A stretch of DNA of 34,605 bases. It comes from a virus. Under the pieces are notes generated by a model. That model was not told the DNA's origin. It searched no databases and saw only the letters and a program-made list of their open reading frames with translations. Every line of letters begins with the position of its first letter. Within the stretch, counting starts at the first letter, position 1. A program made the position numbers and the translations under genes. This document shows, piece after piece, positions 2,912-23,254 of the stretch. The stretch spans positions 1 through 34,605 of IMG/VR virus record IMGVR_UViG_3300042936_000762, one strand, 5' to 3'.

Positions 2912-5544
2912 TAGTAAGATAAATAATTTTTTATTGTTGAAATCCACATATCAGTTCCATCATATATTCCAGACATAACAAAAGATCCTGTAAATCCAAG
3001 AGCGGTTGCGCCGACCGTCTGCCAAGCGTAAGCACTATCAAGTGAAAAACTATATGTTCCTGCTTTTATTAAGAAGTTATATACTGATGTTGTAGCCGAA
3101 ACATAACCAAAAGTTGTATTACCAGTCAGAGTATAAGCATAGGTATTGGTTGATGCTAAAGAAACGGCTGTTGTTCCAGTTATATTAGACACCGATACAT
3201 TTGTGGTATAAGAATTTATACCTATGCTGTAAGTTCCAGCATTATTTCCAATCGCGAGTGTTTGAGCGAGTGATTGAGTTCCAGTATCTCCTTTCGGACC
3301 AGACATCTCTATAATAGAATAGTGTATGTTTGTAAGTGAGAATGTTCCGCTTATTTGACCTACCGTGCTGAATTGTAAATCTATCCAATAGTTAGTATTA
3401 CTTGATAAATCAACAACAACATTTGTATCAACAGGACTAACACCAGTAGTGCTGTTGAATTCATATGGCATACTATATGTTAATCCATTTGTTGATGAAG
3501 CAGTTGTTCCCGCTGCTGGTGATGACCCAGTTCCTATAATTAAACTAACTCTACCATAACTTACTGGTGTGAATGATATATTAACATATAATTTACCAAT
3601 AGTGCTTGTTGAAAATGTTGTTCCAATGCCAGCAATCTTCATTGTTTGATCCGCAGTTCCGTTTGGTAAATATCCACCATAGTATGGCCCAGGAATTACA
3701 GAGTGTGTTCCTGCCGAAATTGATCTATTTGTGCTTTCAAATATAAATTGACCTGTTGATATATTGTAAGAGGTAAGATAAAAGTTGGCTGTTAAATCCC
3801 AATCAGGACTTAAAGCATCACCAGGACTAATACCACCAGGTGATCCCCATGATAAACCAGTCGGTGCTGTGATTACATAATATCCATTAGGTAAGGTTGA
3901 GGCACTCCAGCCAATCGCACTTGATCTAAATGAGTATAAGTCAATTGTTCCAACACTTTTATTACTTGATGTTCCACTTATACTTTTCATAGAACCTGAT
4001 ATAATAGTTGAACCATTTATACCAGAAGAACCACTTGAGCCTGATGATCCACTTGAACCAGATGATCCAGAAGACCCAGAAGAACCACTTGACCCAGAAG
4101 ATCCACTTGATCCTGCTTGACCGACAGCACCAGCCAAATTAATTTGCCAACTGGCGTATGTTCCTGAACCAGTTTTATGTTTAATATCATAAACTAATAA
4201 ACCAGTTGATGGATTATAAGAAACAACTTCTGCGTGCATATGATTACTTAAATCATGTGCGATAATTATACTTTGAGCAATTGAATAATCAAGATTTAAA
4301 TCATTTGTTATTAATGATTGAGTTCCATTACTCGCGATTGTTAGATTAGTATTTGAAGTTGTTGAATAAACATCACCATCTATACCAGAAGTTCCATCTA
4401 CACCAGATGTGCCGCTTGAACCAGAAGTTCCATCTATACCAGAAGTTCCATCTATACCAGATGTGCCACTTGATCCTGATGAGCCAGAAGATCCTGATGA
4501 GCCACTTGACCCTGAGGTTGCAGAAGATCCACTTGTTCCATTTATACCAGAAGACCCAGAAGTTCCATCTACACCAGATGTGCCGCTTGAACCAGAAGTT
4601 CCATCTATACCAGATGTGCCACTTGATCCTGATGAGCCAGAAGATCCACTTGAACCTGAAATACCTGATGAGCCACTTGAACCCGATGAACCGCTTATAC
4701 CACTTGACCCTGATGATCCATTCACACCATTTGTTCCATCTATACCAGAAGATCCAGAAGTTCCATCTATACCAGATGTGCCAGAAGTTCCATCTACTCC
4801 TGATGTGCCGCTTGATCCTGATGAGCCTGATATACCACTTGAGCCTGATGTGCCATTTATACCAGAAGTTCCTGATGAACCACCACCACCTGATGGACCA
4901 GTTGCACCAGTTATACCTGAAGTTCCTGATGAACCTGATATACCTGATGTGCCACTTGTGCCAGCAGCACCCGTTGCTCCTTGCGGACCTATTGGACCAG
5001 GAGGACCCGTTGGACCAAAGTAAGTAATTGTATATCCATTTGTTGAAAGAACGGTTGAATAACCGACCATCGCACTTACTGGATCATTACAAGGTGAATA
5101 TCTTAAAGGAAGTTTTAGAGTAAAAGTAGTCATCCAACCATTACTATTCTCATCCTGTGCTTCATACGCTGGCTGACCTTCAAAGGTTCCATCAATACTT
5201 AAATCTAAATCAACATAATAAGGATGCTGATCTAATTCAGCGAATATAGTTTTACTTATATAATCACAATCAGAAGATGTATCTTGATAATTGGCATCAC
5301 CTTTATTAATCTTATCCATAATATACATAGTGAATGTATAGTATTCTACGCCTTGTGAATTACCACCACCTGTTTGAACTCTTGTTGATATAGGTTCAAT
5401 CCACATATAAGGAAGTAAGGGCGGTCTTTCATTACCTATATTGTATGAAGGTCCGAATCCAAAGTCATTGATAAAACTATGGCGATTTGCTAAATCTTCA
5501 AATATAGATTTAATCTTTGTTAGTGTTAAAGTATTATTACTCAT
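2911..5544 (-). CDS. Collagen-like fibre with tail-completion-like N-terminal domain
   Basis: 877 residues. Residues 1-165 form a globular domain (FGFGPSYNIG, YTFTMYIMDK, FTLKLPLRYSPC) that looks like the small tail-completion or neck proteins of Bacteroidota phages. A classical collagen stretch (GPTGPPGPIGPQG) begins near residue 174 and grades into about 200 residues of SGTSGSSG-type triplets. A globular insert (about 388-470), a second collagen block (about 475-510) and a long beta-rich C-terminus follow. The start overlaps the stop of a 56-residue gene as ATGA. The N-terminal domain would anchor the fibre to the virion; that fusion is inferred from sequence resemblance and could be checked by structure prediction. 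Confidence 0.75.
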   Translation of the reverse strand: MSNNTLTLTKIKSIFEDLANRHSFINDFGFGPSYNIGNERPPLLPYMWIEPISTRVQTGGGNSQGVEYYTFTMYIMDKINKGDANYQDTSSDCDYISKTIFAELDQHPYYVDLDLSIDGTFEGQPAYEAQDENSNGWMTTFTLKLPLRYSPCNDPVSAMVGYSTVLSTNGYTITYFGPTGPPGPIGPQGATGAAGTSGTSGISGSSGTSGITGATGPSGGGGSSGTSGINGTSGSSGISGSSGSSGTSGVDGTSGTSGIDGTSGSSGIDGTNGVNGSSGSSGISGSSGSSGSSGISGSSGSSGSSGSSGTSGIDGTSGSSGTSGVDGTSGSSGINGTSGSSATSGSSGSSGSSGSSGSSGTSGIDGTSGIDGTSGSSGTSGVDGTSGIDGDVYSTTSNTNLTIASNGTQSLITNDLNLDYSIAQSIIIAHDLSNHMHAEVVSYNPSTGLLVYDIKHKTGSGTYASWQINLAGAVGQAGSSGSSGSSGSSGSSGSSGSSGSSGSSGSSGINGSTIISGSMKSISGTSSNKSVGTIDLYSFRSSAIGWSASTLPNGYYVITAPTGLSWGSPGGISPGDALSPDWDLTANFYLTSYNISTGQFIFESTNRSISAGTHSVIPGPYYGGYLPNGTADQTMKIAGIGTTFSTSTIGKLYVNISFTPVSYGRVSLIIGTGSSPAAGTTASSTNGLTYSMPYEFNSTTGVSPVDTNVVVDLSSNTNYWIDLQFSTVGQISGTFSLTNIHYSIIEMSGPKGDTGTQSLAQTLAIGNNAGTYSIGINSYTTNVSVSNITGTTAVSLASTNTYAYTLTGNTTFGYVSATTSVYNFLIKAGTYSFSLDSAYAWQTVGATALGFTGSFVMSGIYDGTDMWISTIKNYLSY
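4018..5025. repeat. Imperfect tandem DNA repeats encoding collagen-like triplets
   Basis: Two blocks (about 4018-4115 and 4380-5025) are built from 9-base units and larger units such as ccagaagttccatctatacc and gatgtgccacttgatcctga, repeated with small changes. They encode Gly-X-Y triplets on the minus strand. Such tracts recombine and slip easily, so copy number is likely to vary among related phages. Smaller blocks of the same kind occur at about 895-1000 and 1375-1500. Confidence 0.85.
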
Positions 5545-10629: not shown

Positions 10630-11490
10630 TCAAGAACTCTTCTTTTCCTTACTCTTTTGATAATACATTTTTCTTGCGTAAGCGCTTTGAAATGTTTTAA
10701 CCAAGATATTTCTACATTCCTCTGAACAGGTTTTAGTGTTAGGACCCATACCAGGTTCAAAATTAAAATCCTTTTTACAATTCTTACAATTTCTTATAGG
10801 TGTTAAGAAAACCTTTGGCTTCTTTTTAGATCCTTTTGTAAAAGCGTTAAGAGGTTTTCTTCCTTCTATGACCTCATTATCAATTCCTTTTTTAATTATT
10901 TCTTCCTTAAGTATTTCGCGTTCTTTTTTCCATAAGACAGCCATTTGATGTGTTCGCATACCTAATATCTTAGCCATAGTTGAATAGGATTCACCTTGAA
11001 CTCTTAATTTAAGAATTACATAATCACCTTCATTAATCATTTTAATAACTTCCTGTGTGAATTCTATAATTTCTTTTTTATCATCATCTTCACCATCAGA
11101 ACATTTAAGAAGTGCTTGACCAACCACATCTCTATTCTCATCACTACCTTCATCATCTTTCCAATCAAGTGAATAATGATGTCTAATGTGTCTATTATAC
11201 TTTGGATCAACCTCATTAATAAATATATTTCTTAATATAGATTGAAACCAAACCAGTTTAGAAGCCTTCTCTGAATTATACTGGTGTGATACTCTTAATC
11301 CTTGAAGTATAGTCATATGTATTACTTCCTCGTGATAAGTTTTATACTTCATAAACATATGTCCTTTAAGAAGATTAATCATTTCTTTTATTTCATCATC
11401 AGTCATAAAGGAATTATTAAGTGTCCAGTCGGATATATCCCACTTACTTCTTGTTGCCTTTGCTTCATAAGTATCTTTTTTCTTTCTCAT
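10630..11490 (-). CDS. Sigma-like regulator with C-terminal zinc finger
   Basis: 286 residues. The N-terminal part (about 40-100) is helical and resembles sigma region 2 (ASKLVWFQSILRNIFINEV). Residues about 157-196 give a sigma region 4-like helix-turn-helix (DYVILKLRVQGESYSTMAKI, then LGMRTHQMAVLWKKER). The C-terminus has C235-x2-C238 and C255-x3-C259, a four-cysteine zinc-finger pattern, in a basic region. It is the first gene after the terminator at 11531-11568, so it probably opens a separate transcription unit. A switch to later genes is a reasonable role but is inferred only. Confidence 0.65.
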   Translation of the reverse strand: MRKKKDTYEAKATRSKWDISDWTLNNSFMTDDEIKEMINLLKGHMFMKYKTYHEEVIHMTILQGLRVSHQYNSEKASKLVWFQSILRNIFINEVDPKYNRHIRHHYSLDWKDDEGSDENRDVVGQALLKCSDGEDDDKKEIIEFTQEVIKMINEGDYVILKLRVQGESYSTMAKILGMRTHQMAVLWKKEREILKEEIIKKGIDNEVIEGRKPLNAFTKGSKKKPKVFLTPIRNCKNCKKDFNFEPGMGPNTKTCSEECRNILVKTFQSAYARKMYYQKSKEKKSS

Positions 11491-11596: not shown

Positions 11597-13231
11597 TTAT
11601 ATTTTAGAAGAAAGTTTTCTTTTTGCTTTTCTCACTTCATTTTGTTTTGACCACTTTAATTTTTTATTAGAGTGAGCCTCTGCTTGTCTTTTTTCAACGG
11701 TTTGTGCTGTTGTTAATCCAGAACTATATACAAACAAGTGAGTGATTTTTTGTGAAGAGGACCATTTATATTTTGATGGCTCTGATTTCAAATAGTCAGA
11801 TGCGCTGTCATACTTTTTTGCTGACGCGATTACTTCTTGTATATCATAAACGGTTTTGTTTGATTGAATCTTCCAACCTCTTTCAACACAAAGTTTTTCT
11901 TTGAAACCATTTGATTGAATCCAGTTCTGGTCATTTCTTGACATAGTTCTGAATTCATTCCAAGAAGAAGCGGATTGTGATGATTGAAAACAACTTTCAT
12001 AAGTTCTTTTTACAACGCCAGTAAGTTGATTTAGGACAACATCAGCGTCAGCGAAATCACAAACATCAAAGAAGTTTTGAATATCACCGAAGTCAGGAAT
12101 TGATACTGATGATGCTGACGCTGATTTTCTTGAAGAAGAAACTCCTGTTGAAGTTTGCTTAACAACAGGAATTTGTAATCCTGCAAAGTTTTTGCCGTTG
12201 AATGATAATAAATTTTCTTTCTTCATTAAAGAAATTGAAATAGAAACCATAACGCGAGTTAGTGCATTTAAGGTGTTGTTGGTCACCTTAATATAAAACT
12301 TATTTTGTAATTGATTTCCGCGATTTGATCTTGACATCATTTGGTGAATAGTATCAGGATTGTGAGTGAATGACATATCAATAGTATAGTAAAGATTATT
12401 ATCTGAATAACCAAGACGCATTCTATCAACAACAACAAGAGATTGAATATCACCTGACTTAAATTTGTTTGATATAATTGAATCTGGGTCAGATTTAGAA
12501 TCAGAAACAACTGAATCAATACCAACAGAAGTAAGATATTGTGCGGTCAATTGAGCGTGTTTAATATCACGGCAGATAAATAGTTTTTTACCGTCAGCGA
12601 TGTGTGGAAGAACTGAATCAACTGATGATTTTACTTCATCATTTGAAAACATAATACCTGATTTTAAAACTCTGTCATCATTGTAAGAGTTAGAATCAAT
12701 TTTAACATCAGCATTTACTATACGGAAGTTTAAGCGAGCAAAGAACTCATTAGGAATATCAAGTCGAGCGATTGGTAAGATATACTTAACGCCATCAGCA
12801 ACAAATTTTGAAGGTGTTGCAGTTAAAAGAACTTGATGATTTACACAACCAATGCGTGATTGAATAGTATCAGCGAAGTAGTTTTGGTGTGCCTCATCAA
12901 CAATAACAAGTGAGAATTGTGAAAGGTCAAGATTAACAATTGAAGATCTGATTGCAACAAAGCAATCAACATCTGTTGAAGTTTGAGACCAAGTAAAGTC
13001 AGGATTAATTTGAGCCAAACGCTGACAGAAATTATCTTTGATTACATTAGTGTGGTGAGCAATAACAAGAACTTTGCCGAAGTTTGACTTAACAAAAGAA
13101 GAAACCAACATAATCGCGATTTCAGTTTTGCCTGAACCAGTAGCCGCAGCGAGAACAACTTTTGAAGTAGGTGCTGAAAAGCCTGATACTACTTCTGTGA
13201 TTGCTTTTGATTGATAGTTTCTTGGTGTCAT
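11597..13231 (-). CDS. SF2 DEAD/DEAH-box helicase
   Basis: 544 residues. Superfamily 2 motifs appear in order: RNYQ (4-7), Walker A AATGSGKTE (29-37), motif Ia VIAHHTN (56-62), motif II VDEAH (111-115), motif III LTATPS (136-141) and motif VI HQMMSRSNRGN (296-306). A C-terminal region of about 210 residues (335-544) has an unfamiliar Trp-rich stretch and a basic tail (RKAKRKLSSKI). It would unwind DNA, probably in replication or recombination, and is the only clear replication-type enzyme here. It is driven by its own early promoter, which is a copy of the one in front of the next gene upstream. Confidence 0.92.
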   Translation of the reverse strand: MTPRNYQSKAITEVVSGFSAPTSKVVLAAATGSGKTEIAIMLVSSFVKSNFGKVLVIAHHTNVIKDNFCQRLAQINPDFTWSQTSTDVDCFVAIRSSIVNLDLSQFSLVIVDEAHQNYFADTIQSRIGCVNHQVLLTATPSKFVADGVKYILPIARLDIPNEFFARLNFRIVNADVKIDSNSYNDDRVLKSGIMFSNDEVKSSVDSVLPHIADGKKLFICRDIKHAQLTAQYLTSVGIDSVVSDSKSDPDSIISNKFKSGDIQSLVVVDRMRLGYSDNNLYYTIDMSFTHNPDTIHQMMSRSNRGNQLQNKFYIKVTNNTLNALTRVMVSISISLMKKENLLSFNGKNFAGLQIPVVKQTSTGVSSSRKSASASSVSIPDFGDIQNFFDVCDFADADVVLNQLTGVVKRTYESCFQSSQSASSWNEFRTMSRNDQNWIQSNGFKEKLCVERGWKIQSNKTVYDIQEVIASAKKYDSASDYLKSEPSKYKWSSSQKITHLFVYSSGLTTAQTVEKRQAEAHSNKKLKWSKQNEVRKAKRKLSSKI

Positions 13232-13301
13232 AATTTCTAATTTTTTAAGTGGTTATTTCTATACTATAAAGATACGGAACTTTTCTGAATTGACCTAATT
13301 T
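13229..13301 (-). repeat. 73-bp promoter-leader repeat, copy 1
   Basis: Identical base for base to 13571-13643. It covers the start codon, the leader with AACCACTTAAAA, the -7 and -33 elements and a little upstream DNA. Duplication would give the two genes the same regulation. Confidence 0.95.
13267..13298 (-). promoter_or_regulatory. Early promoter of the helicase gene
   Basis: Minus-strand TTAG (13298-13295), a 20-base spacer ending in GTTCCG, then TATCTTTA (13274-13267). This matches the Bacteroidota housekeeping pattern TTTG-N19-21-TAnnTTTG with one change in each box. Transcription would start near 13262, leaving a leader of about 30 bases. The promoter overlaps the end of the upstream gene. 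Confidence 0.85.
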
Positions 13302-13573
13302 TATCCTAAAATAAAAGAACAAATTGCATCTATAATATCATCTTCTGTGTTGAATTTCCACTTGTTAAATGTCTTATAAGTTGATTGGTCATCGCTGAAA
13401 GGTTGAAATGATGCAATGATAGATTGATTACAATTAAGGTCACCTATGCTGAAATTACGGTCATTTCTTAATTCACCAGATACTTCATATACTCCTTTTT
13501 TTTCAGTTCTATGAACGCTGAAAGATCTTAAATCCTTTAATAATTTTGCCTCTATTTTTTCTTGAATTGTCAT
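13301..13573 (-). CDS. Hypothetical early protein
   Basis: 90 residues, starting MTIQEKIEAKLLKDL, with a mixed alpha/beta look (YEVSGELRNDRNFSIGDLN; EDDIIDAICSFIL at the end). It has its own early promoter and a leader identical to that of the helicase gene. Such small early proteins often target host functions, but nothing here identifies a partner. Confidence 0.7.
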   Translation of the reverse strand: MTIQEKIEAKLLKDLRSFSVHRTEKKGVYEVSGELRNDRNFSIGDLNCNQSIIASFQPFSDDQSTYKTFNKWKFNTEDDIIDAICSFILG

Positions 13574-13643
13574 AATTTCTAATTTTTTAAGTGGTTATTT
13601 CTATACTATAAAGATACGGAACTTTTCTGAATTGACCTAATTT
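13571..13643 (-). repeat. 73-bp promoter-leader repeat, copy 2
   Basis: Exact copy of 13229-13301, 342 bp away, in the same orientation. Confidence 0.95.
13609..13640 (-). promoter_or_regulatory. Early promoter of the 90-residue protein gene
   Basis: Minus-strand TTAG (13640-13637), 20-base spacer, TATCTTTA (13616-13609), identical to the helicase promoter because both lie in the 73-bp repeat. Confidence 0.85.
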
Positions 13644-13646
13644 ATT

Positions 13647-13943
13647 TTACATAAATTTACTCATTTCAACATCTGCAATGAATGTAATACCATCAACCCT
13701 AACTGATGATAAACCATTCCAGAAATCAATCACAAAGTCATTTTGAGCCCAGCATCCTGTAATCTTCCAGAAAGCGTAGTTCTCGGCTTGGATTCTTGTT
13801 GGATACTCAATAGAGTCAGGATCTCTTCTAACACCATTAACCATCGCTGGAGTAGGTCCATTAAAAATAAGTATAGGACTTGCCATTTCATCTAAAACTA
13901 CTTTGTCAAATTCTGCTCTTGATATTTTATTAGTTGTTTTCAT
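13647..13943 (-). CDS. Hypothetical early protein, leaderless start
   Basis: 98 residues (MKTTNKISRAEFDKVVLDEM ... ADVEMSKFM) with a Trp-rich middle (YAFWKITGCWAQNDFVIDFW). It is the first gene to the left of the divergent control region. Only four bases separate the -7 box from the ATG, so the message probably has almost no leader. Function unknown. Confidence 0.7.
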   Translation of the reverse strand: MKTTNKISRAEFDKVVLDEMASPILIFNGPTPAMVNGVRRDPDSIEYPTRIQAENYAFWKITGCWAQNDFVIDFWNGLSSVRVDGITFIADVEMSKFM

Positions 13944-13947
13944 ACTT

Positions 13948-13979
13948 CAAAGATACGGAACTTTTTCTCAACCACCAAA
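13948..13979 (-). promoter_or_regulatory. Leftward divergent early promoter
   Basis: Minus-strand TTTG (13979-13976), 20-base spacer ending GTTCCG, TATCTTTG (13955-13948): a full match to the Bacteroidota consensus. The predicted start point falls at or next to the ATG at 13943. Confidence 0.9.
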
Positions 13980-14002
13980 TTTATTTTTGATTATTTTCCT
14001 AT

Positions 14003-14102: not shown

Positions 14103-14134
14103 TTTGGTGAATAGGGAAATCCTCCGTATCTTTA
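14103..14134 (+). promoter_or_regulatory. Rightward divergent early promoter
   Basis: TTTG (14103-14106), 20-base spacer ending CTCCG, TATCTTTA (14127-14134). Four bases later comes ATG 14139, so the transcript is probably leaderless. Upstream the A-rich stretch GAAAATAAATTTGG is shared with other early promoters here. Confidence 0.88.
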
Positions 14135-15439: not shown

Positions 15440-15467
15440 AAGGACAACGGCAATCCTTTAAACCGTT
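15440..15467 (+). other. Possible H-type pseudoknot or weak terminator between two early genes
   Basis: AAGGA (15440-15444) pairs with TCCTT (15454-15458), while AACGG (15446-15450) pairs with CCGTT (15463-15467), followed by TTT. The interleaved order is that of an H-type pseudoknot. Taken alone, the second stem plus T run could be a weak terminator. It sits seven bases after one stop codon and 15 bases before the next ATG, so it could control the 85-residue gene. Confidence 0.45.
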
Positions 15468-15482
15468 TTTAGATATAATAGT

Positions 15483-15740
15483 ATGGATAATAAAGAAAAA
15501 ATAAAACTTGTAGTTGAGCATATGATGAGTTCCTACAAACCACAATTAATTAAAAGTGATATGGTGAGCGAAGTAATTATACATGACGCTTATGATAGAT
15601 ACTTATTTAAACCGTCAGAGGTTGAACTTAATTGGTTAATATGCCGTTTAAGATTCATAGTTGCTGATGAAGAATATCAAGATGAAATTAAAAAGCAGGA
15701 TGATTTAGATTTTATGAATTGGATTTATAACACAAAATAA
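15483..15740 (+). CDS. Hypothetical early protein
   Basis: 85 residues, acidic and helical (EKIKLVVEHMMSSYKPQL, EVELNWLICRLRFIVAD). It starts at ATG 15483 just after TATAAT-like DNA and the pseudoknot-like element, and its stop marks the left edge of the long non-coding stretch. Function unknown. Confidence 0.65.
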   Translation: MDNKEKIKLVVEHMMSSYKPQLIKSDMVSEVIIHDAYDRYLFKPSEVELNWLICRLRFIVADEEYQDEIKKQDDLDFMNWIYNTK

Positions 15741-16270
15741 TTTTTATTTTCTAACAACAAGAAAGCGGATATTTAATATATATTTTACAGCAATTGGAGG
15801 AAATAGAAAGCATTAAAAAGAACATACTACGAGCAATAAGAGGTAAATATAATTTAATAAGAAGATGAAATGCTCATGGTGTAGTCCATGCCTGGTCAGC
15901 CAGAGATAAATTGCAGTAATGTCCTTTTTGTTAGTATATTAATAAACTTAAAAACAGAAAAGTTAATTAGTATATTAGGTATTGGAGGCTAAAACATTAG
16001 AAGATTAAATAAAAATAAATCCTACAAAATCCTTAAAGATAATATCTTGGGTAGGTCACTCTAATATTCAATAGGGCGCTGTGTCTAAATTCACAACCCG
16101 ATCAATCAACAGAATATTAATCCGCGGTTGGAACCATAGTTAAGAAAGGTGGTTCAGGAAGATGATGGCTTGAATGTAGAAACTTAAAGGTCTTCATTAC
16201 TTCCTATACTAAATGAGGTTGTAATACTTTCTATGCTTAAAAGGAAAACATAATAGTTAATATATAGAAT
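15741..16270 (+). ncRNA. Candidate large structured non-coding RNA (about 430-500 nt)
   Basis: A 530-base stretch with no credible gene in an otherwise gene-packed genome, and with local GC-rich segments. Complementary segments nest neatly. A closing helix ATAGAAAG (15803-15810) pairs with CTTTCTAT (16227-16234). Inside are CATGG/CCATG (15875/15886), CTGG/CCAG (15892/15900), TAAT-AACTT/AAGTT-ATTA (15940-15969), CCTAC/GTAGG (16021/16051) around AAGAT/ATCTT, and TAATATTC/GAATATTA (16062/16112) around GGG..TGTG/CACA..CCC. Then come GAACCA/TGGTTC (16131/16150) and GGAAGATGA/TCAT-ta-CTTCC (16157/16194). Size and phage setting recall the ornate large RNAs ROOL and GOLLD, but no class is assigned. 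The strand follows the neighbouring genes. Confidence 0.6.
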
Positions 16271-16540
16271 ATGAAGAAGAATAAAAAAGAAGAAAGAAAA
16301 CAAAGATTAGAATCATTCAGAAGTGATATACTACCTCTTATATCAAAAATGTATAAAGTATCATCACACGGTCCAGAAAACGCACCAGACACTATGTATA
16401 AGATTACCATACATAGTGAATTAACATATGACTACTATCCTATGAGTGAAAAACTCCGAAGGAATAAAGGCGGTATATGTGAATGGGGATCAACCACATC
16501 AAATGATGTATTAGATGGTATAAAAAGATTAAAAAAGTAA
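16271..16540 (+). CDS. Hypothetical protein downstream of the structured RNA
   Basis: 89 residues, starting with a very basic helix (MKKNKKEERKQRLESF) and followed by a compact alpha/beta part (KITIHSELTYDYYPM; GGICEWGST). The charge suggests nucleic-acid contact. It begins right after the RNA region and is followed two bases later by the next gene. Function unknown. Confidence 0.65.
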   Translation: MKKNKKEERKQRLESFRSDILPLISKMYKVSSHGPENAPDTMYKITIHSELTYDYYPMSEKLRRNKGGICEWGSTTSNDVLDGIKRLKK

Positions 16541-16542
16541 AT

Positions 16543-16971
16543 ATGAAAGAAAGAATAAAGCCACTAACACCAGAAATGACGCAGTGCGATCATGATAAAG
16601 TCATACCTCATTTAATAAAACTTCTTGAATTGAATGCGAGTAATTATAAAAAAGGAATAACCGCAAATAGAATTATTGTTTGGTTCAATAATCATCAAGG
16701 TAGAATTGGATTCAACGGATCTTTTGGTAAAGCAAGATTGATGAAGTGTATAAATTATATCAGAGGTAGAAGATTATCACCAATATGTTCTGGTGCGTCA
16801 GGATATTGGATTGAGCATGATACAAAAGTAATCAGAGAATTTACAAAGAGAGAAAGAATAAGAATAGAAGCACAACTATTTATGATTAAAGGTATGGAGG
16901 AATTGGCAAATGAAATTGATGAAGCGAATAGTAAAAATAAAACCGATATTTTAGGATTTACTTGGAACTAA
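16543..16971 (+). CDS. Winged-helix-like phage protein
   Basis: 142 residues. The middle has a winged-helix layout: ITANRIIVWFNNHQ, a helix KARLMKCINYIRGR, then the wing-like RLSPICSGASGYWI. This pattern occurs in small phage proteins thought to bind DNA. The C-terminus is a long charged helix. It is the last plus-strand gene and its stop overlaps the stop of the opposing late operon. A replication or regulatory role is possible but unproven. Confidence 0.65.
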   Translation: MKERIKPLTPEMTQCDHDKVIPHLIKLLELNASNYKKGITANRIIVWFNNHQGRIGFNGSFGKARLMKCINYIRGRRLSPICSGASGYWIEHDTKVIREFTKRERIRIEAQLFMIKGMEELANEIDEANSKNKTDILGFTWN

Positions 16972-17213
16972 TTTCTTTTATTGAGTTGCTTGATTTCATT
17001 TGTTAAATCACTTATTACTTCTTTTAATTCCGACATCTTTTCTGTAAGATTATCATACTTATTTGTGTGATCATTAGAAAGAACATCTAATTTATTCTTT
17101 GTTCTATAAGATAAATCCTTTACAGATTTTAATTCATCCATAGTTTGTTTTAAGAAATATCCTATTATGGCTAACATCAAGCCACCAATAAATGTTAATA
17201 TGTTAATCATCAT
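16968..17213 (-). CDS. Single-span membrane protein with coiled coil, possible holin or spanin
   Basis: 81 residues. A transmembrane helix at about 4-22 (ILTFIGGLMLAIIGYFL) is followed by a charged heptad-rich helix to the end (KMSELKEVISDLTNEIKQL). This layout fits small lysis proteins and is placed at the very end of the late operon. No endolysin is found next to it, so the lysis role is tentative. The start overlaps the 49-residue gene as ATGA. Confidence 0.65.
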   Translation of the reverse strand: MMINILTFIGGLMLAIIGYFLKQTMDELKSVKDLSYRTKNKLDVLSNDHTNKYDNLTEKMSELKEVISDLTNEIKQLNKRN

Positions 17214-20587: not shown

Positions 20588-21568
20588 TTACTTAAAATAA
20601 ACTATGTTTTGGTAGTAGTATGCTGCTGCACCGATTTTAAATTTCGCTCTGAAATAAACTTGGTCATATAAGTTTTCATACCAAATTCTGAATGATGAAT
20701 AATCAGACATTAAATCAGTTCCCATTGCTAGGTTTTTTGCGTTAGTTAATAATCTTTTGTTAGTTCCGTTAAGACCTCTTACTGCAACAATTCTAACTGG
20801 TTGTCCTGGATACATAAAAGTCCATCTTGAAGCACCTGTTTCTTCTTGTCCTACTGAATAGTGAAAGTAATTTGCGTTTCTTAAAGCAACAACTAATGTA
20901 TTAAAATCAGCGTAAGATAAGAAAATTGTTAAATCATTTTCAGTTAAGATTTGAGATGCACTTGAATTCATCGCGTTAATCATACCATCAACAATATTGA
21001 TTGCGTTAGCAACCGTCATAGTTGTGTTAGTTGAATGAGTTCCATTACCAGAAATTACTGACATAGAAGCAGAAGTGTAATCTATTGTTTCAAGAATACC
21101 TGTGCATAATCTCAAGTTAGTATCAGTAGAATATCTATCTGCAGTTGGTGATGCTTTCCAGAAAAGGTCATCCATATACGCTTGAAGTTTAGCTTGTTTA
21201 TCAGCTGTATAAACTTGTGCGAATTGTTTTGGTGATAGGTCTTCTGTATAAGAACCTGCTGCCATGAACATACCTAACCAGTATTGTTCTATGTCATTTT
21301 CACATACGCTTTCTTCAATTTTAATTGGACAAACCGTTAGAGCGTTTTGTTGTATCGCCACTGAACCAGTTGGTGATATGATTCCACAACCACCAGCAAC
21401 CGCGTTGAATGATGATGTGATTTTGTTTAAAGCGTCAGAGTATTTGATATTTGGAATTACGGTGATATACTTAAAAGTTTCACCACCTAATACTGATTCT
21501 CTAACTAATGCTTGTGATAATTGGTCGGTATATTTCGCCAGACCCGATAAATCAATTGAACTTGCCAT
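20588..21568 (-). CDS. Major capsid protein
   Basis: 326 residues, soluble, rich in beta strands with a long helix (SPKQFAQVYTADKQAKLQAY). The Ala/Ser/Gly-rich ends and mid-sequence hydrophobic patterns fit an HK97-fold capsid subunit. Residues about 120-150 would form the spine-like helix and the C-terminus (FRAKFKIGAAAYYYQNIVYF) the last strand of the A domain, a region typical of phage capsids. It follows the protease and scaffold-like genes and precedes the tail tube, the usual context. No long N-terminal delta domain is visible; the separate 225-residue gene may supply scaffolding. Confidence 0.75.
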   Translation of the reverse strand: MASSIDLSGLAKYTDQLSQALVRESVLGGETFKYITVIPNIKYSDALNKITSSFNAVAGGCGIISPTGSVAIQQNALTVCPIKIEESVCENDIEQYWLGMFMAAGSYTEDLSPKQFAQVYTADKQAKLQAYMDDLFWKASPTADRYSTDTNLRLCTGILETIDYTSASMSVISGNGTHSTNTTMTVANAINIVDGMINAMNSSASQILTENDLTIFLSYADFNTLVVALRNANYFHYSVGQEETGASRWTFMYPGQPVRIVAVRGLNGTNKRLLTNAKNLAMGTDLMSDYSSFRIWYENLYDQVYFRAKFKIGAAAYYYQNIVYFK

Positions 21569-21592
21569 TTTATTTAGTTATTTTTTTTTGTT

Positions 21593-22270
21593 TTATGCTT
21601 TTTTACTGCTAAAATTGTATGAATTATCTGTGTTGAATCTTTTTCTCAATTCTTTTAACTCTTCTAATTCATTTTTTACTGAACTGAACGCAACACCTGA
21701 TCCTGTTGAAGTTGATTTACCAACCTTAATAGATTTTTCTGCTGGTGATTCAGCAATTTCATTAATTTTACTCATCGCCATTTCCTGTGCGTTAGACATA
21801 CCTTGTAGTAATTCTAAAATTTGTGAAATGTGCTCTTCTAATTTACCAACTCTTTCTTCAATAGAAATTTCAACCTCTTCTTTTTCTGGTTCTTCTTCTG
21901 CCATCTTTTCTGGCGTTCCCATTTCTTGTTTTTCTGCTGTTGTATTTGCTGGATTTTCTGGACTTTCTTCAACTTTCTCATCACTTGCATCACTAACGGT
22001 TTCAATTTTACCACCACTAACAACAATAGATTGTCCGTTTTCTAATTCATAAGATCCGTCAGCACAAGCGATTTGATTTCCATCTGCATCCATTGTATAA
22101 CAATCAACACCAGGTTCTAAATTTGAACCATCTGGAATCATAATCTCTGAACCATCTTTAAGTTTCATGCTCTCACACTTAACATTTTCCATGGGTGCTG
22201 CTTCTGCTGAAAAAGTCATCAACTTTTTTAATTGATCCTTAATCTTTAACATTGCTTCTTCTTTATTCAT
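21593..22270 (-). CDS. Scaffold-like acidic coiled-coil protein
   Basis: 225 residues. After a helical start, two or three short beta repeats built around DG (DGSEIMIPDGS, DGSYELENGQ) are followed by a very acidic, Glu/Pro-rich linker (about 90-130). A heptad-patterned helix comes next (VGKLEEHISQILELLQGM) and then a basic C-terminus. Position between an XkdF-type protease and the capsid protein, composition and coiled coil suggest an internal scaffold that the protease removes. The role is inferred. Confidence 0.6.
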   Translation of the reverse strand: MNKEEAMLKIKDQLKKLMTFSAEAAPMENVKCESMKLKDGSEIMIPDGSNLEPGVDCYTMDADGNQIACADGSYELENGQSIVVSGGKIETVSDASDEKVEESPENPANTTAEKQEMGTPEKMAEEEPEKEEVEISIEERVGKLEEHISQILELLQGMSNAQEMAMSKINEIAESPAEKSIKVGKSTSTGSGVAFSSVKNELEELKELRKRFNTDNSYNFSSKKA

Positions 22271-22336
22271 GTTTTTATTTGTTTTTTTATCCTACTATTA
22301 AATATAATGCAGGTTTTTTTTATCATTTCGCGATAA

Positions 22337-23254
22337 TTATCTTAATGAACCACCTTCTGTATAAGGAACGCCACCAACGGTTAAGATTTTATATACTGCC
22401 GCTCCTACTGATGGTGTTTTACCAACCCACCATCTACCTTCACCAGATGTATCATCACTTACACAAGAAGCATTTCCTTCAAATACATCTCTAAACATAT
22501 CAAAATCAACATTAAAATATGTATAAGTTGAACCATCATTAAACCTAATAACTAATTCATAACTTTCATCATTATACATAATTTTATCTACATTAGAACT
22601 ATCAGGTGATGAACGCCATTTCTTAAACTCAATAAGTATGTCCTCTATTTCATCATCATTTAAATTATCAATATGATCTTCAAAGGTCATTATCTTTGAA
22701 TACTCTAATGGCTTCTCACCCATAACACCTTCAATAGAAAATCCGAACTTACCTAATTCTTTTACTTCTTTATTCCAGAATTCTTTATCTTCTATTTTAA
22801 TACTAACCATCCAAGTTCCAACAGGAACATTAAATCCATACATTCTACTTTTATCATAGTAAGTATCTTCAACAATCCAGTTTTCCATTATGTAAGCATT
22901 TACCATTTTATTAGAATGATCTACATTTATTTTTCTATTTGTTCCTTGACTATTAAATTTCTGAACTAACTTTAATATAGTTTCTGCTTTGAATACATTA
23001 TAGTAGAAATTACCATCTTCATCTTTTCTTAAAATCTTTTTATTTGGAATCATTCCTGGTCCGACTATCATTTGTTTATCCTCCTGTGCTTTGAATTGGT
23101 AATCCTTCATAGATGTATCTATACTAAAAGCAACACCCATCATTTCAATTGCTGGTTCATCAACTATACTTAATAATCTTATACCAGTTCTTTCTGTATC
23201 ATCACATACTATTTCATAAATAGGATAATCAGCATCTTTAAATTGTTTTTTCAT
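22337..23254 (-). CDS. XkdF-like prohead protease fused to a KTSC domain
   Basis: 305 residues. Residues about 60-190 fit the XkdF family of putative phage serine proteases: IVGPGMIPNKKILR, a YYNVFKAETI strand-helix, INVDHSNK with a conserved His, WIVED, GTWMVSIKI and FGFSIEGVM. After an acidic linker, residues about 213-290 resemble the KTSC domain (VDKIMYNDESYELVIRF, GSTYTYFNV, FRDVFEGNASC). The protease would trim scaffold and capsid before DNA packaging. The extra KTSC-like tail is unusual and its job is unknown. Confidence 0.75.
   Translation of the reverse strand: MKKQFKDADYPIYEIVCDDTERTGIRLLSIVDEPAIEMMGVAFSIDTSMKDYQFKAQEDKQMIVGPGMIPNKKILRKDEDGNFYYNVFKAETILKLVQKFNSQGTNRKINVDHSNKMVNAYIMENWIVEDTYYDKSRMYGFNVPVGTWMVSIKIEDKEFWNKEVKELGKFGFSIEGVMGEKPLEYSKIMTFEDHIDNLNDDEIEDILIEFKKWRSSPDSSNVDKIMYNDESYELVIRFNDGSTYTYFNVDFDMFRDVFEGNASCVSDDTSGEGRWWVGKTPSVGAAVYKILTVGGVPYTEGGSLR

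Follow-up and report, generated by a model that had tools for sequence, protein, structure and literature searches.

The gap at positions 15741-16270 lies in a rightward early operon of a phage genome whose whole IMG/VR record, the window analysed here, is 34,605 bases long and encodes portal, large terminase, head protease and tail-fibre genes. The gap is bordered by an 85-amino-acid (aa) open reading frame (ORF) on one side and an 89-aa ORF on the other, with a convergent structural module nearby. The nearest cultured relatives, as judged by the portal protein, are the Nonlabens phages P12024S/L (28%). Early genes are preceded by promoters of the form TTG-N-TATCTTTA at 14104, 14427 and 14801, which we take to be of the Bacteroidota type. 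The phages carrying the element described below probably infect flavobacteria or other Bacteroidota. Its neighbours are as follows.

15483-15740 (+): 85-aa ORF, upstream neighbour, without family match
16271-16540 (+): 89-aa ORF, downstream neighbour, without family match
16543-16971 (+): 142-aa protein, homologue (29%, E 3e-11) of a 139-aa protein near the element in a second phage, G006, which anchors the equivalent position
16968-17213 (-): 81-aa protein, homologue (73%) of a G006 83-aa protein adjoining the 139-aa gene

Several other features of the early region were observed. The promoters at 14104, 14427 and 14801 belong to near-identical promoter and leader units (TTTGG..TATCTTTATAGTATAG, then a common A-rich leader) 5′ of consecutive early genes, and further copies occur across the divergent region, on the other side. 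A protein encoded at 10630-11490 (-) has a weak match to the phage sigma-factor family phrog_1740 (E 1e-6) and might be a candidate reader of phage-specific promoters. Just 3′ of an early 187-aa gene, at 15440-15467, AAGGA/TCCTT is interleaved with AACGG/CCGTT and followed by a T run, forming a possible H-type pseudoknot or terminator-like element. The 187-aa gene itself has 48% relatives amid structural genes in other phages (L087 4959-5510, L085 and L086), indicating that it moves between modules.

Coding content and single-sequence folding of the gap

A sequence-only reading of this locus had described a gap with no credible gene in an otherwise gene-packed genome, and both points hold. The 530 bases contain no ORF of at least 60 aa (the longest internal start-to-stop ORF has 34 aa), and this is the sole stretch of more than 200 bases in the 34,605 bases that lacks an ORF of at least 50 aa. 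The period-3 signal of the gap is 0.60, which only 8 of 682 genome windows equal or fall below, and same-strand genes score 1.0-5.6. An alternative genetic code was rejected, as each of the six frames of the gap contains at least two kinds of stop.

The same reading had inferred a large ornate RNA from the number of nested helices, a label that the sequence by itself would not justify. An AT-rich 530-mer yields about as many helices by chance. Indeed, perfect helices of 7-10 bp occur at counts near shuffled levels, helices of at least 8 bp including G-U pairs number 53 versus 42 ± 5.5 in shuffles, and Watson-Crick helices of at least 9 bp number 1 versus 1.0. There is a slight excess of 12-bp helices with G-U allowed (3 versus 0.6), and the strongest inverted repeat is equalled by 27 of 60 shuffles. 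Fold z values for the 530-mer are -0.63 (+) and -1.51 (-), which are ordinary in a genome-wide scan; single-sequence values range from -0.63 to -1.70 for the + strand of the window, with 0.26 for L108, the homologue described below.

Individual elements of the earlier fold fared unevenly. Its 8-bp closing helix ATAGAAAG/CTTTCTAT (15803-15810 with 16227-16234) is present letter for letter, but only five of the eight pairs are kept in L108, where the helix is replaced. A second helix, TAATATTC/GAATATTA (16062-16069 with 16112-16119), is present and retains seven of eight pairs in L108, but is not beyond chance. The segment ATTGGAGG, reported as a repeat, does recur at 15793, with its second copy at 15981 rather than 15982; since the copy at 15793 is not conserved in L108, the repeat looks coincidental. 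Fold energy may fail to set large RNAs of AT-rich phages apart from random sequence, so that they go unnoticed unless homologues are available.

A homologous element in a related phage

Viral contigs were scanned for exact matches to two DNA probes. The first, a 21-mer, matched the same virus only, and the second, the 16-mer TAGTTAAGAAAGGTGG, matched 42 stretches, one of which is a true new homologue. This stretch, L108, is found in contig IMGVR_UViG_3300032240_001691 (22,607 bases) of phage G006, a relative of the window phage with its structural genes in the same order. Same-virus records aside, the other 16-mer matches have little in common beyond the probe. Positions 15771-16237 align to L108 with 74% identity over 487 columns (blastn E about 1e-83 to 1e-88; nhmmer E 2e-62); the pairwise alignment sets window positions 15768-16240 against L108 695-1150 (-). 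The gap can be divided accordingly.

15771-16238 (+): conserved non-coding element, the proposed RNA gene, matched by blastn to L108 of G006; well-conserved core from about 15821
15741-15770 and 16239-16270: flanks, poorly conserved in the alignment to L108

Within the core, 322 of 376 ungapped columns are identical (86%, gaps excluded). Codon-aligned comparison of the window with G006 gives 56% identity in the capsid gene (45% aa), 58% in the portal gene (44% aa), 71% in the 81-aa gene and 45% in the 142-aa gene. The element is also the top nucleotide match between the two genomes, at 315 bits versus 141 for the next. Elsewhere in these genomes, collagen-type repeat-like tail-fibre segments (window 4480-4960) match G006 at about 13,090-13,980 and 21,400-22,340, and these matches in several places suggest reshuffling of fibre repeats.

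The chance-level helix counts and fold energy would be expected of a decayed gene or a neutral spacer whose helices arose by chance, but this reading is scarcely credible, since no other DNA is as well conserved between these two phages, whose capsid and portal proteins share only about 45% identity. Conservation above that of capsid and portal essentially refutes neutral DNA, unless transfer was very recent, and a decayed gene is ruled out by the conservation pattern. Very recent transfer, in which a mobile fragment of any passenger DNA owes its identity to horizontal movement rather than constraint, would fit both the patchy occurrence of the element, which is found in the window phage and G006 but not in L013 or the other relatives searched, and its inverted orientation in G006. 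We nevertheless consider such a fragment highly improbable, because the match stops at the element and sits in the equivalent genomic place, and because uneven identity (0.64-0.91 by block), with identical loops and changing stems, is a sign of selection.

A protein frame conserved across the stretch, which the sequence-only reading had named as one finding that would speak against an RNA, is absent. Insertions and deletions between the window and L108 measure 16, 38, 1, 1, 1, 1, 1 and 2 bases; they are not multiples of 3 and exclude a shared reading frame. The alignment consists of long identical blocks between hairpins that differ in length (L108 has 16 more loop bases, and the window alone has a 38-base arm), as would be typical of a structured RNA.

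Over the parts that they span, three further records of this virus do not differ from the window, one of them only partially covering the element, and so they say nothing about variation. The element is absent from L013/G002, the closest relative represented by a full record (32.8 kb), and is thus dispensable. Other relatives recovered by portal and capsid searches of viral contigs are also without it, and the same searches of bacterial genomes returned nothing. Nonlabens phage P12024S has no detectable copy, and in blastn searches of cultured phages and plasmids the gap gave AT-rich chance matches or none. Searches for homologues with neighbouring proteins found the same virus only or no match, and a search with the 187-aa protein led to the 48% relatives, in which the gene lies elsewhere and the element is absent.

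A gene-free stretch of 610 bases also occurs in a comparable place in another related phage (L007 9558-10167, IMGVR_UViG_3300021142_000141), with a GC content of 0.36 versus 0.30 for the locus, no codon periodicity (0.09) and a fold z of about -3.5 on both strands. Homology of this stretch to the element was rejected as unsupported by sequence, profile or covariance model; it does not resemble the window element and matches nothing in Rfam. It is possibly a second, unrelated large RNA.

Consensus structure, strand and orientation

RNAalifold applied to the window and L108 yields an 89-pair fold. Among 400 column-shuffled alignments, 5 reach its consensus energy on the + strand and 1 on the - strand. 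A 79-pair structure was assembled from the better helices of this fold, with the base of a variable arm added by eye. Its parts on the + strand are listed below with alifold probabilities.

15831-15835 with 16234-16238 (+): consensus closing helix P1, GAGCA/UGCUU (GGGCA/UGCUC in L108); probability 0.93; two one-sided compatible changes
15852-15874 (5′) with 15987-16010 (3′) (+): long interrupted stem; no broken pair
15852-15857/16005-16010, 15864-15867/15995-15998 and 15872-15874/15987-15989 (+): helices of the interrupted stem
15875-15890 (+): hairpin CAUGG-UGUAGU-CCAUG; probability 0.98; stem kept in L108, with 16 extra loop bases between 15882 and 15883
15892-15903 (+): invariant hairpin CUGG-UCAG-CCAG; probability 0.99
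15922-15986 (+): arm of variable length; L108 lacks 15940-15977 (38 bases, the greater part of an AU hairpin)
16031-16051 (+): hairpin CCU..AAGAU-AAU-AUCUU-GGG; probability 0.65-0.83; one GU>AU change
16064-16117 (+): AUAUUC/GAAUAU outer helix (probability 0.41) around the invariant GGGCGCUGUG..CACAACCC hairpin; probability of the inner hairpins 0.86-0.94
16133-16153 (+): hairpin ACCAU-AGUUAAGAAAG-GUGGU; probability 0.89; its loop is the 16-mer probe that found the homologue
16156-16232 (+): 3′ domain, with outer helix 16156-16161/16227-16232 and two sub-hairpins; three compatible G-U changes; outer helix probability only 0.36

Across the two sequences, the 79-pair structure has four two-sided compensatory changes, seven one-sided compatible changes and two broken cells. 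Three of the four compensatory pairs fall in the interrupted stem (AU>GC, AU>UA and CG>UA, accompanied by one GU>GC), and the UCC/GGA base of the variable arm contributes a C-G to G-C change. Two U-U mismatches of the window in that arm are the sole broken cells. The AUAUUC/GAAUAU helix is the inner part of the second helix noted earlier, and a 35-base block around the GGGCGCUGUG..CACAACCC hairpin is identical in both phages.

Shifting partners by one to three columns lowers pairing from 98.7% to 39-47%. The observed compensatory values are reached by 33 of 500 partner shuffles, which for two sequences is not significant, and at least three compensatory pairs occur in 139 of 400 shuffled alignments, again of two sequences. 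The compensatory changes are therefore suggestive rather than significant evidence for the fold. The earlier proposal of a large structured phage RNA, possibly of a new class, thus draws most of its support from the homologue, the indels and the compensatory changes, whereas the helices and the repeat on which it was first based are at chance level.

Base composition distinguishes the two strands. Unpaired columns on the + strand are 49% A and 9% C, with 24% A in paired columns; read on the - strand, unpaired columns are 30% A and 43% U. The A-rich unpaired columns favour + as the RNA strand.

The G006 element is found in the equivalent region, upstream of the counterparts of the 142-aa and 81-aa genes; the adjacent 73-aa and 139-aa genes, however, are encoded on the other strand. 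The element diverges from the 73-aa gene (5′ side, 1244) and converges with the 82-aa gene (3′ side, 452-700), and the immediate flanking genes are non-homologous between the two phages. A cis-acting leader or operon regulator of the 89-aa gene, such as a riboswitch-like element or attenuator, would explain why the window element sits directly 5′ of that gene on the same strand, but such a role is very unlikely given these neighbours in G006 and the lack of a terminator. Neither a strong early-type promoter nor an intrinsic terminator was recognised at the element ends, which also counts against the proposed RNA gene. The flip in orientation relative to neighbouring genes disfavours a cis leader and favours an independently transcribed, trans-acting RNA.

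The main rival is an element conserved as DNA, such as a replication origin or a recombination or packaging site, which would be orientation-independent and whose hairpins would matter as DNA or not at all. The flipped orientation, the position close to where early and structural modules meet, the long identical blocks and the low consensus energy on both strands all agree with such a site. We judge it unlikely, however, as a search of the gap for an iteron array found none, just a few short two-copy direct repeats, and because the element, at about 440 bases, would be long for an origin. Moreover, conserved segments are interspersed with variable-length hairpin arms and compensatory changes, and the unpaired columns are A-rich on a single strand.

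On balance, we consider it probable that the + strand encodes a structured non-coding RNA of about 410-470 nucleotides, of a class outside Rfam, present in two related phages. This RNA would span 15771-16238, closed by pairing of 15831-15835 with 16234-16238. Early in infection it may be transcribed from a promoter of its own; it is predicted to fold into a compact multi-domain structure and presumably acts in trans. The likeliest route would be as a scaffold or decoy that binds a host or phage protein or RNA, rather than as the leader of the next gene.

Comparison with known large RNAs

The sequence-only reading had suggested kinship with ROOL, GOLLD, OLE or group I introns. An Infernal search of Rfam found no match to any of these for the window or the homologue, and there was no match of any kind at gathering thresholds for the window or L130. 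The ROOL model is included in Rfam 15. Permissive cmscan returned nothing above chance to E 10 for window positions 15600-16400 or to E 5 for L108, and ARAGORN detected no tRNA or tmRNA in the window or in L130 and L131. A catalogued RNA too diverged for Rfam, such as a self-splicing intron, an RNase P-like ribozyme or a tmRNA, would be in range as to size and multi-domain fold, but has little chance of being the answer in view of these permissive searches and the position of the element outside any gene. By these comparisons, the element cannot be recognised as ROOL, GOLLD or OLE and would not be filed as an intron or tmRNA.

OLE, a cellular RNA of extremophilic Gram-positive bacteria, likewise has an ornate, large, conserved multi-helix fold, but the element has no Rfam match to it. 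Group I and group II introns interrupt genes, whereas the element lies between complete ORFs in both phages and has no intron match to E 10. Among cultured phages, P12024S is comparable as a flavobacterial phage of about 35 kb with a related portal.

ROOL is a large structured non-coding RNA of phages and prophages, of unknown function and often near tRNA islands (PMC12286853). The element is likewise carried by a phage, with portal, terminase and tail genes in the window, but differs in having no ROOL match in Rfam, no tRNA in the scanned records and another genomic setting. GOLLD is another large RNA encoded by phages; its function is unknown, it has variable domains, and many examples exceed 800 nucleotides (PMC12286853). 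The element is similarly a large phage RNA candidate with variable-length parts, but at about 410-470 nucleotides, with no Rfam match and no tRNA in the scanned records. A closer parallel, in which the element would form a self-assembling RNA-only particle, as ROOL and GOLLD do, or act as a ribozyme, encoded by an orientation-independent gene that moves between phages, seems distinctly unlikely. The resemblance to ROOL and GOLLD would be limited to that of large phage-encoded RNAs without an assigned function. Few large phage RNAs are known, and the functions of ROOL and GOLLD are still unassigned; a further class in Bacteroidota-type phages, better conserved than capsid and portal genes, would offer a new system in which to study what such RNAs do.
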